Shown: piece after piece, positions 18,497 through 23,009 of the stretch
Numbering within the stretch: position 1 is the stretch's first letter
How the letters are laid out: every line of letters begins with the position of its first letter
Assembly (NCBI GenBank): GCA_903829945.1
Contig: CAIKRV010000066.1
Location: 1-64,000, forward strand
Source: an uncultured bacterium
GTDB lineage: Bacteria; Bacteroidota; Bacteroidia; CAILMK01
Reading direction: 5' to 3'
DNA: 64,000 bases
Translations under genes and position numbers: made by a program
The notes under the pieces: generated by a model
Told to the model about the DNA's origin: nothing
Seen by the model: only the letters and a program-made list of their open reading frames with translations
Databases searched by the model: none

Positions 18497-19726
18497 TTAT
18501 TTTCTTTGATCCAAATAATTGTCAAAAGCAGCCACCAGTGCTTCCATAAACAAATCACCTTGGATCATATATCCATAAAAATTATAATGTATTTTATCGC
18601 CTGCCCCCATTCCGGCCTTTTGCCATAATTGCATTGCGCCTAAACCTCCCATAGTCGTAAAATAATCCCATACCGCACAATCATTTTCTTGAGCCAATTT
18701 AAAAATAACTTCGCGAGCCAATAAATTAGAAATATTAGGGTTTCTGTTTTTCAAATAGCAATCCCCCGGAGTAGTCAGTAAAATTTGTACATCGGGTATC
18801 TGTTCTCTAATATTATGAATTAATTTAGCATAATGTAAATGAAAAGCAGCAGAATCAAAATCCAACATATATGCATCGTTTGTTCCTAAAGATATTATAA
18901 CCAAATCAGGATATAATTGAACTAATTGTTGCGGCAGTAATTTACATTTTAAAAAGGAATTTACTTCTGCACCATTTACCCCGACCGCATGGTAAACAAT
19001 ACCCGGATCTCGAGTTTCCATACTTAATCCATACAATGTAAAACTTGCGTTTATTCTTCCTTTTTTACTTAATATTATTTCAAATGACTTAACCGGTTTA
19101 GATAAGTTCCATTCCACTGCTCCATTGGTATAATTTTCACTTTGTACTATTTGTGAATCCGAAACCATTAATTTGAGTTGATAAGTACTATCAGGACAAG
19201 AATAAAATAAACGAATTCTATTGCAATCATATCTGGAGCTTGCAATTTCAGACAGAGAAAAATGCAGTTTAGCAAAACTATCATTTGTCGCCACAGAAAT
19301 TCCGGCTAAACCCAATACACAATCTTTATTCTGTACATTTCTACAACTTTCCCATTTCCCTGAATATTCCATCTTATAAGAGTAAGGGTTATTGGTATGC
19401 GCCATAGTATAAGGGAACATAAAGCCCCTACCCCCATTTCCACCAGGGAAAAAATCTTGCAAAGACTGACGCATTCTATTGGTTAAAATATCAGCTTGTA
19501 TATGAGAATCCCCAATTTGAACAATATTAATTTGTTTATCCCCAGCTTTCATTAATCGCTCCAAATTCCTATAAAATGATAATAACACATCAGCTTTGGG
19601 AGTATAAATTTTATTTTTTTCAAATCTTATAAATGGAAATTTACTGCGGTCCACAATTTCAGGTTGTGCCATACTTTGTAAGGCAAAAACTAAACTTATA
19701 ATAATATGTGGTATTGAATTTTTCAT
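18497..19726 (-). CDS. Secreted SGNH/GDSL-family hydrolase (first of a pair)
   Basis: 409 residues with a cleavable signal peptide (about 1-20, ending SMAQ). The catalytic SGNH blocks are visible: nucleophile GDSHIQ (Ser74), block III GTND, and a C-terminal DKIH that supplies the Asp-His pair. A beta-rich insertion of about 130 residues separates block I from block III. Such periplasmic SGNH proteins typically act as O-acetyl esterases or transferases on polysaccharide or peptidoglycan; in Bacteroidetes they often accompany an MBOAT acyltransferase, which is not seen here. It follows the second SGNH gene by 39 bp and is probably cotranscribed. Confidence 0.82.
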   Translation of the reverse strand: MKNSIPHIIISLVFALQSMAQPEIVDRSKFPFIRFEKNKIYTPKADVLLSFYRNLERLMKAGDKQINIVQIGDSHIQADILTNRMRQSLQDFFPGGNGGRGFMFPYTMAHTNNPYSYKMEYSGKWESCRNVQNKDCVLGLAGISVATNDSFAKLHFSLSEIASSRYDCNRIRLFYSCPDSTYQLKLMVSDSQIVQSENYTNGAVEWNLSKPVKSFEIILSKKGRINASFTLYGLSMETRDPGIVYHAVGVNGAEVNSFLKCKLLPQQLVQLYPDLVIISLGTNDAYMLDFDSAAFHLHYAKLIHNIREQIPDVQILLTTPGDCYLKNRNPNISNLLAREVIFKLAQENDCAVWDYFTTMGGLGAMQLWQKAGMGAGDKIHYNFYGYMIQGDLFMEALVAAFDNYLDQRK

Positions 19727-19765
19727 TGCATAAAGCTATCAAGCTAAATGTACCGAAACTTAGGA

Positions 19766-21238
19766 TTAAATTCCTTTTTTCTTTTGTCCTTTATGGTTAT
19801 AATATTCATTCATCAGGGCGTTGAATATCATTTCACCTATTATACGTGCTCCGCGTGCATTAAAGTGTGTATAATCTTTTTCAGCCAAGGCGTCCGGTTT
19901 TGCATCTACCCAACTCGACATAGAATTTTTCCCGCCCATGGCTTCATATAAATCCCAATAGGCACAACCTGCCCTAAATGCAGCCCGCTTTTGTGCATCT
20001 CGAATGCGCTCTATATTAGGATAGGAAACATAATTATTGCCATCCTTTTTCGACATATCTGAAACCCCAATCACTAAAATGCTTATGTCGGGATTTTGAT
20101 CTTTAAATTTTTTCAGATTCGCATAAAACGTTTTCTCATAAAAATCATAATTATCGATTACATATGGTACTACATTTACGCCATATTGAAAAATCATTAA
20201 GCGAACATTCATTCGTTTAATTTGTTGTGTCAGATAATTCAGATCCATTCTCCCAAAATCTGTACCCGAGGACCCGCGCATGGGTACATTATCTACAGCA
20301 ATGCCTTTTTTACTATCTAATGAGATCCCATATACATCAGGACTGTAAACATTTGTAAAATCCAATTCAATATTTTCAGGGGAATTATCCAAATCCAGCG
20401 TTTTAATATTGAATTTATCCGACCCGTCTAAAAATATAATATGCTGTTTTTTATCTGTATTTATAATAATATTGCCCGGTGCGGGCACTTTACCATAAAA
20501 CAAATTCATTCGTTCATATTTTTTAGCATGAGGATAGGCACTAATTAATTTATGATAATGCACCCATGCTTTTACTAAATTATTTGCTTTGGAACTATCA
20601 TTTGATAAATAGTATCGAAAGGCACTGCATAACATGCTATACTTCCTGGAATCATAATTTTTAAATAATCCTCCATAAATAGCATATTTTATCCAATTAT
20701 CAGATTGCGTTATTTGTATGGTATGCCTTGAAGCATTAGGCTCATAAATTGGTATTAATCCTGTACCGCTTCCACCAAATTTTAGTTGCAACATTTCTCT
20801 CAAAGTCGAAGAAATTCGATCTCCTTCAATCTGGGAATCTCCGTAATGCAAAATACGAAAAAGCTTATCATTCTTCTCTAATGAATCTAACGAAACAAAC
20901 AAAGCATCTAATGCATTTTTCCGATCATCCGGATATTGTATTTTGTAAGTAATTTTTGCCATCTGCCTAGGATCATCACGAAGGACTAAGGTATCAGGTG
21001 CACTTTCAGCACTTGCTCCGGAATGATTATGCAGGCTGGAATCTGAAACATTTTTGACAATCTTATCAATGTCCACTTTGCTAACTGTCTTAGGATGCAA
21101 TAACTCTTCTAAACTAATAAACTTAAGTTTATAATTTCCGGCCAAAGGAATCATACCACTTGGAAAAATAAAGATCACCCCCAACAATAGCAGGTTAACT
21201 AAAACAAGTAACAGAAGTATTTTGTGTGGCTTTACCAT
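19766..21238 (-). CDS. Membrane-anchored SGNH/GDSL-family hydrolase (second of a pair)
   Basis: 490 residues. An uncleaved-looking N-terminal membrane segment (about 5-27) should anchor it with the catalytic part in the periplasm. The SGNH blocks are GDSQIEGD (Ser near residue 145), QYGVN for the block III Asn, and a terminal DYTHFNARG that supplies Asp and His. Like its neighbour it has a long insertion between blocks I and III. Two adjacent divergent SGNH enzymes suggest successive or alternative deacylation of a surface polymer; the substrate is unknown. It ends in a Lys-rich tail. Confidence 0.82.
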   Translation of the reverse strand: MVKPHKILLLLVLVNLLLLGVIFIFPSGMIPLAGNYKLKFISLEELLHPKTVSKVDIDKIVKNVSDSSLHNHSGASAESAPDTLVLRDDPRQMAKITYKIQYPDDRKNALDALFVSLDSLEKNDKLFRILHYGDSQIEGDRISSTLREMLQLKFGGSGTGLIPIYEPNASRHTIQITQSDNWIKYAIYGGLFKNYDSRKYSMLCSAFRYYLSNDSSKANNLVKAWVHYHKLISAYPHAKKYERMNLFYGKVPAPGNIIINTDKKQHIIFLDGSDKFNIKTLDLDNSPENIELDFTNVYSPDVYGISLDSKKGIAVDNVPMRGSSGTDFGRMDLNYLTQQIKRMNVRLMIFQYGVNVVPYVIDNYDFYEKTFYANLKKFKDQNPDISILVIGVSDMSKKDGNNYVSYPNIERIRDAQKRAAFRAGCAYWDLYEAMGGKNSMSSWVDAKPDALAEKDYTHFNARGARIIGEMIFNALMNEYYNHKGQKKKGI

Positions 21239-21396: not shown

Positions 21397-21520
21397 ATAT
21401 CCACAATTGCTAAATACTGATATACAAATATTTAAGTGTAAATAATAAATAATTGTGGAAAACGTATTTATTTGGTATTCAATATAATAACTAACTTATG
21501 CACAATTAGATTGTGGAAAA
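21397..21520. promoter_or_regulatory. Cluster of DnaA-box-like 9-mers upstream of mraZ
   Basis: Three 9-mers match the TTWTNCACA DnaA-box consensus: TGTGGAAAA (complement TTTTCCACA) at 21454-21462 and again at 21512-21520, and TTATGCACA at 21496-21504. ATATCCACA at 21397-21405 and AGTGGAAAA at 21282-21290 are one base off. All lie in a 379-bp, very AT-rich gene-free stretch between divergent genes. This may be a DnaA-responsive control region or an origin-like element; dnaA itself is not in the window. Confidence 0.4.
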
Positions 21521-21527
21521 GTATAAG

Positions 21528-21563
21528 TGTCGAAATATGTCGGTTTGTGTCGGTTTGTGTCGG
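21528..21563 (+). promoter_or_regulatory. Four 10-bp-spaced TGTCG direct repeats, likely MraZ operator
   Basis: TGTCG occurs at 21528, 21538, 21548 and 21558, each exactly one helical turn apart, with the last three extended to TGTCGG. MraZ of E. coli is known to bind short direct repeats with 5-nt spacers (10-bp period) at its own promoter. Here the array ends about 55 bp before the mraZ ATG and overlaps the expected -33 region, which fits autorepression of the dcw operon. Binding is inferred. Confidence 0.65.
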
Positions 21564-21571
21564 ACTATTTA

Positions 21572-21579
21572 TAATTTTA
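21572..21579 (+). promoter_or_regulatory. Candidate -7 element of the dcw operon promoter
   Basis: TAATTTTA matches TAnnTTTG at seven of eight positions and lies nine bases after the last TGTCGG repeat. Transcription would start near 21586, giving a leader of about 32 nt before the mraZ ATG, which is preceded by AAAGG. Confidence 0.35.
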
Positions 21580-22094: not shown

Positions 22095-23009
22095 ATGACC
22101 CCCACCTATCATATCCCTGCTCTTCTTAGTGAGAGTATTTTGGCACTGGATATTAAACCGGCAGGGATTTATGTCGATGCAACTTTCGGTGGTGGCGGAC
22201 ATAGCAAAGAAATTTTAAAGCATTTAAAGACAGGTAAATTAATTGCCTTTGATAAAGATGTAGATGCACATAAAAACTTGCCGGAATCTGAAAACTTAAT
22301 TTTAATTCCGCATGATTTCATCTTTTTAAAAAATTATCTCCGTTTCCTAAATGTTATTCCGGTAGATGGAATTCTTGCCGATTTAGGTTTATCTTCCCAT
22401 CATATTGATGAAGCCACAAGGGGCTTCTCCTTTAGATTTGATGCAAATTTAGATATGAGAATGGATAAAGAAAATCCATTAACTGCGGAAGAACTCATAA
22501 ATACTCGTAGTCAATCTGAATTACAGCAAATATTTTCTTCTTATGGAGAAATTAAAAATTCTAAAACCTTAGCGGTAAAAATAGTGCAACGTCGTAGTGC
22601 ACAAAGAATTCAAACTACATCACAGTTAGTTGAAATAGCAGAGGAAGTTTTGCCCTATAAAGAGAATTTAAAAAAATATTTGGCAACAGTTTTCCAGGCT
22701 TTACGAATTGCTGTAAATGATGAATTATTAGGTTTAGAACAATTTTTAAATCAAGCTCAAGAAGTACTTGCTCCCGGAGGCCGGCTGGCAGTCATTACCT
22801 ATCATTCTTTAGAAGATAGGCCTGTGAAGAACTTTTTCCAAACCGGAAATTTCGAAGGAAAGGAATCAAAAGATGTTTTCGGAAAAGTCAGCCGTCCCTG
22901 GAAGCAAATAACCAAAAAACCTATTATTCCTACCGACGAAGAAATAGCTGTAAACCCTCGTTCACGAAGTGCAAAATTGCGTGTGGCAGAAAAGATTGAA
23001 ATATCATAA
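22095..23009 (+). CDS. rsmH: 16S rRNA m4C1402 N4-methyltransferase
   Basis: 304 residues. Transfers a methyl group from AdoMet to N4 of C1402 in 16S rRNA, tuning start codon decoding. Motif I DATFGGGGHSKEIL (about 28-41) binds AdoMet; ADLGLSSH and TRGFSFR are family signatures, as is the terminal VNPRSRSAKLRVAE. Second gene of the dcw operon as in most bacteria, formerly mraW. Confidence 0.96.
   Translation: MTPTYHIPALLSESILALDIKPAGIYVDATFGGGGHSKEILKHLKTGKLIAFDKDVDAHKNLPESENLILIPHDFIFLKNYLRFLNVIPVDGILADLGLSSHHIDEATRGFSFRFDANLDMRMDKENPLTAEELINTRSQSELQQIFSSYGEIKNSKTLAVKIVQRRSAQRIQTTSQLVEIAEEVLPYKENLKKYLATVFQALRIAVNDELLGLEQFLNQAQEVLAPGGRLAVITYHSLEDRPVKNFFQTGNFEGKESKDVFGKVSRPWKQITKKPIIPTDEEIAVNPRSRSAKLRVAEKIEIS

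Follow-up and report, generated by a model that had tools for sequence, protein, structure and literature searches.

Few bacterial regulators are as conserved as MraZ, which stands at the head of the division and cell-wall (dcw) gene cluster. The Escherichia coli MraZ boxes were reportedly described by Eraso and colleagues in 2014 as TGGGN direct repeats with 5-nt spacers. In distant bacteria, the MraZ sites have a GTG repeat in units of 7+3 nt (PMC7761207, PMC8475190). The Mollicutes site consists of AAAGTG[T/G] repeats, according to Fisunov et al. (2016), quoted in PMC8475190. Here, we describe a four-unit repeat array upstream of mraZ in 64,000 nt of DNA from an uncultured bacterium of the class Bacteroidia (the window; contig CAIKRV010000066.1). 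The array is real and very probably works as an MraZ operator, in a sequence variant specific to this lineage. Elements of this kind are known; what is of interest here is that operator and regulator have changed together.

The repeat array and its locus

The array lies directly upstream of mraZ, which is followed by rsmH and then by other dcw genes (Table 1). Copies of TGTCG begin at positions 21528, 21538, 21548, and 21558, and this spacing of exactly 10 bp is far beyond chance. The 64-kb window contains three instances of the pair TGTCGN5TGTCG, all of them within the array; dinucleotide shuffles predict 0.02. Genome-wide (2.9 Mb), the pair occurs four times, and three of these belong to the mraZ array. 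Apart from TGTCG, no 5-mer in the window is repeated four times in succession at period 10, and at periods 7, 8, 9, 11, 12, or 13 no 5-mer at all is. Zero four-copy 5-mer runs were found in 100 Markov windows. The positions and spacing given by the sequence-only reading were thus borne out by the sequence and by both kinds of randomization. The -7-like box and mraZ that it had placed after the array were also confirmed, by the fit to the Bacteroidota promoter motif and by the Pfam match of the frame.

A GTG core is present in three of the four units, the remaining one having ATG. Units 1 and 2 differ at four sites outside TCG, with TCG itself kept in both, and units 3 and 4 are identical. No ordinary GTGG array is left in the window. 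On the minus strand, two neighboring frames at 18497-21238 are divergent from mraZ and have GDSQIEGD/GDSHIQAD motifs; judged by eye, we take them to be probable SGNH-type hydrolases.

Table 1. Coordinates of the array, its boxes, and the adjacent features in the window
Feature	Position	Strand	Basis or remark
Direct-repeat array, four units, period 10 bp: TAAGTGTCGA AATATGTCGG TTTGTGTCGG TTTGTGTCGG	21524..21563	+	Register from comparison with 134 relatives
Box 1, GTGTCG	21527..21532	+	Sequence and relatives' register
Box 2, ATGTCG, A replacing G at the first core position	21537..21542	+	Sequence and relatives' register
Box 3, GTGTCG	21547..21552	+	Sequence and relatives' register
Box 4, GTGTCG	21557..21562	+	Sequence and relatives' register
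-7 element, Bacteroidota type, TAATTTTA, fits TAnnTTTR	21572..21579	+	15 bp past GTG of box 4
mraZ, divergent transcriptional regulator MraZ, 149 aa, sole MraZ of the genome	21618..22067	+	Pfam PF02381 above cut-off
rsmH (mraW), first gene 3' of mraZ, ordinary evolutionary rate	22095..23009	+	

Operators of relatives and the altered half-box

For comparison, 134 distinct mraZ upstream regions besides that of the window were used, 132 from class relatives and two from named Bacteroidota (L035, L036). A box model of three units at 10-bp period, trained without the window, has the consensus AAAGTGG(T/G)AA. Of the 134 regions from relatives, 133 exceed the 99% level of shuffled upstream regions, and about 130 also exceed the highest shuffle score, 8.1 bits; in the approximately four that do not, two boxes can be made out by eye. 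Since the model was trained on the regions it scores, its absolute scores err on the high side, which is immaterial because typical scores of 25-45 stand against a shuffle maximum of 8. When relatives are aligned as the sequence-only reading had suggested, 10-bp-period repeats with a shared core are therefore near-universal, and the absence of such repeats, which it named as a refutation, does not occur. With this survey, the boxes of Bacteroidia mraZ operators have a sequence model, of which a limited search of open papers found no earlier account. A genome-contig search with RsmH returned, within the phylum, just Chitinophaga and one Cytophagaceae MAG and no close relatives. Both mraZ and rsmH are missing from the same-genus G001 and the same-family G002, probably through incompleteness of these genomes.

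Three consecutive units are the usual number among relatives; four occur in 14 of the 134, and five in one. The last GTG is 15 bp from TAnnTTTR in 30 and 16 bp in 44 of the 94 scorable relatives (74/94). Across their units, the G following GTG is 92% conserved. Among 385 units, the triplet after GTG is GTA in 160, GGA in 106, GGG in 28, and TCG in 2. Single TGTC-bearing units lie within otherwise ordinary arrays (e.g., in L012, L096, L097, L125, and L167), which shows tolerance of this variant as a minority unit.

A DnaA-box-like element (AGTT[AT]T[TC]AACA or TT[AT]TCCACA) was also found in 93 of the 134 regions upstream of mraZ, whereas shuffled sequences gave about 3. In many Bacteroidia it adjoins the first MraZ box (e.g., L010, L022, L139), and AGTTWTYAACA, where found, ends mostly at a fixed distance from that box. 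In the window, TTGTGGAAAA (reverse of TTTTCCACAA) occurs twice upstream of the array, at 21453-21462 and 21511-21520. Through this element, dcw transcription could be tied to the initiation of replication.

In the relatives' register, the window units read NNNGTG-TCG-G: the GTG left half is kept and the right half is changed. This register is fixed because two landmarks, the promoter and GTG, agree; the last GTG is 15 bp from TAnnTTTR, matching the 15-16 bp of relatives. The ordinary box model gives the window array 4.6 bits, under the shuffle maximum. In the right half, GTA/GGA is replaced by TCG in 4/4 window units, versus 2/385 units of relatives. By independent unit draws, four TCG of four would have a probability of <1e-7, a guide only, since units 3 and 4 are identical and the units are hence non-independent. 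Part of the uniformity may stem from recent unit duplication, as the identity of these two units suggests.

Thus, the array has the marks of an MraZ operator: a place upstream of mraZ and the dcw cluster, at least three repeats at 10 bp, a repeated GTG, and the relatives' phase and promoter distance. It lacks the ordinary Bacteroidia core GTGG[T/G]A, and because TCG replaces GG(T/G)A in all four units, we class it as a variant and not as the ordinary type. The sequence-only reading had proposed that the geometry was conserved while the recognized sequence changed. The slot and 10-bp period are indeed conserved and the core is unlike that of relatives, but reading the repeat as TGTCG conceals the kept GTG. 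Its further statement that the core is unlike those of E. coli and Mycoplasma applies to the TCG half; GTG is common to E. coli, Bacillus, and Mollicutes sites, and the next T is allowed in AAAGTG[T/G]. TGTCG as a general Bacteroidetes MraZ operator has to be abandoned, since relatives use AAAGTGG(T/G)AA and TGTCG is this genome's version.

The serious rival is that the right half drifted while the specificity of MraZ stayed as it was, although we judge this somewhat improbable. MraZ would then still read mainly GTG and an A/T-rich flank, and TCG would have drifted and become widespread as slippage duplicated the 10-bp units. This agrees with GTG being the part common to distant MraZ sites (PMC7761207), with the lone TGTC units in relatives' ordinary arrays, and with units 3 and 4 being identical. 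However, the strong conservation of G after GTG means that this position is not neutral in relatives, units 1 and 2 both have TCG despite their differences elsewhere, and MraZ itself is strongly diverged.

The TGTCG word alone is unsafe to read because period-10 TGTCG arrays occur in Bacteroidia away from mraZ. Three-copy arrays are present in 13 of 395 class genomes, this genome counted, and of those examined none except that of the window precedes mraZ. A phylum search with GTGTCGN4GTGTCGN4GTG gave two matches with no mraZ nearby; this pattern is too strict to match the window array itself, in which box 2 has ATG. Viral contigs gave 64 matches, none near MraZ. A second genome with a TCG array before mraZ was not found in the class genomes or the phylum search.

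The arrays elsewhere raise the question of whether a different DNA-binding protein or a mobile element owns the window array. Besides the 13 genomes, this explanation can draw on the many intergenic TGTCG arrays within G155 and G238 and on the G290 (L073) array, which adjoins a recombinase-like frame. Yet this genome has one array only, it sits where the ordinary MraZ boxes, themselves absent, would sit, in their phase and at their distance from the promoter, and no other TGTCG array examined precedes mraZ. We regard the explanation as very unlikely and favor MraZ because of position, phase, and the absence of ordinary boxes.

The arrays away from mraZ are of several kinds. Intergenic TGTCG-N5-TGTCG-N5-TGTCG arrays lie between unrelated genes, up to nine per genome. 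One genus has many (L067, L068, L069, L079, L080, L081, L085, L086, L089, and L090 from G155, G238, and G306; L070, L082, L087, and L091 from a further genome, G125). Such arrays may be sites for a regulator or mark where a dispersed element ends. In L073, the TGTCGTTTTG array at 1501 adjoins a frame that by eye resembles a Bacteroidota tyrosine recombinase, and this array may be an attachment site. Tandem TGTCGAAGGG units lie beside CCCTGAGCTTGTCGAAGGG-type dispersed repeats in several Bacteroidia (L062, L065, L066, L071, L074, L075).

The MraZ protein and a possible re-matching

The protein encoded at the locus is a divergent member of the MraZ family by Pfam, context, and fold. Two PF02381 matches over the cut-off correspond to the two MraZ half-domains, with the D-x-x-x-R motifs D13/R17 and D88/R92. 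The NCBIfam equivalog TIGR00242 scored 64.8 bits, short of its 98.35 cut-off, and all families matched are MraZ. The AlphaFold model has a pLDDT of 89.8. The 16 PDB entries that match it best are without exception MraZ structures (TM 0.70-0.77 by query), including the promoter complexes 9r4j and 9sz7; the Mycoplasma genitalium structures matched are a promoter-bound and a four-box-promoter-bound form (9sz7).

Mean identity to the other MraZ proteins is the lowest among 135 (31%; median, 46%), whereas RsmH of the same locus is typical (53%). The MraZ-minus-RsmH difference has a z of -4.4 against the other 53 loci carrying both genes. With members of its own order, this genome shares 52-61% identity in RsmH and just 29-36% in MraZ; the same-family L004 shares 50-59% and 53-64%, respectively, with those members. 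The MraZ tree gives the window protein a branch of 2.64, longer than any other (median, 0.4), and a topology that keeps this protein within its order was not rejected (p-AU 0.926). Horizontal acquisition of mraZ is accordingly unsupported, an argument that the long branch makes weak.

Residues that are 86-99% conserved are changed, among them E7R, Q27L, W54F, and G81T; G41 is changed as well, and the NRG-type loop at 39-41 reads VKE. F91, beside R92 of the second motif, is present in 0/134 relatives, and a class-conserved C-terminal segment is lost. Intact are D13, K15, R17, R76, D88, R92, E119, and W121.

Relaxed selection could also account for the divergence of MraZ. Gene and operator would then be decaying, with the array as a remnant, in line with the very long branch, the changed C-terminal segment, and the changes at Q27, G41, W54, and G81. 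Against decay stand the open frame, the retention of every invariant residue, the confident fold, and four boxes that are regular and not degraded; we find it very unlikely.

Known MraZ proteins autorepress the dcw operon via GTG repeats (PMC8475190, PMC7761207), and on this basis a repressing MraZ oligomer most likely sits on the array. We conclude with considerable confidence that it is the operator by which MraZ would bind, repress, and so autoregulate the dcw operon, the box change and the rapid MraZ change being lineage-specific. In the proposed mechanism, the oligomer would dock on successive boxes, which the 10-bp period places on the same helix face, and would cover the upstream part of the promoter. 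In Bacteroidia, the boxes precede the -7 element, at a place where they are expected to overlie the -33 region. Docked MraZ would repress mraZ, rsmH, and then the downstream division and cell-wall genes.

We lean somewhat towards the view that the lineage re-specified its MraZ, the preference having moved from GTGG(T/G)A to GTGTCG with box spacing and promoter distance fixed. The right half of every box would have gone from GTA/GGA to TCG, MraZ would have changed along, and repressor and operator would form a re-matched pair. Our inference that the changed core and the changed protein are matched comes from their having departed together, in a single lineage; the changes in MraZ would be the cause of the new sequence preference. 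If the pair is indeed re-matched, MraZ of this species should bind AAAGTGGTAA arrays no better than GTGTCGG arrays. Re-specification, if true, would provide a natural pair in which to identify the residues responsible for recognizing the right half-box; judged by rarity, R7, L27, V39-K40-E41-R42, T81, and F91 are the candidates. As boxes and protein moved together at fixed spacing and promoter distance, geometric and base-specific recognition would become separable, with residues to test.

Comparison with described MraZ sites

The structures of MraZ on four-box DNA are very recent (9sz7, February 2026), and our literature search found no paper describing the 2026 MraZ-DNA structures. The sequence-only reading had supposed that a four-unit array could engage four faces of the MraZ ring. 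Four-box binding is already present in the solved structure 9sz7, and for the window array it is a prediction.

Like the E. coli MraZ boxes, the window array consists of direct repeats with a 10-bp period before mraZ as the first dcw gene, but the E. coli core is GTGGGA and the window core GTGTCG. The E. coli and Burkholderia arrays are located downstream of the -10 box (PMC7761207), whereas the window array is upstream of the -7 element. With the Mollicutes site quoted in PMC8475190 and with the M. genitalium four-box complex (PDB 9sz7), it has in common the GTG core, a T allowed after GTG, and four boxes. It differs from that site in a right half fixed as TCG(G) and in a left flank that is mostly TTT or TAA, in contrast to AAA in Mollicutes. 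To the ordinary Bacteroidia operator, usually three units of AAAGTGG(T/G)AA, it corresponds in place, phase, period, promoter distance, and GTG. It departs from that operator in having TCG for GG(T/G)A in all units and in its four units, a number also found in the 14 relatives.
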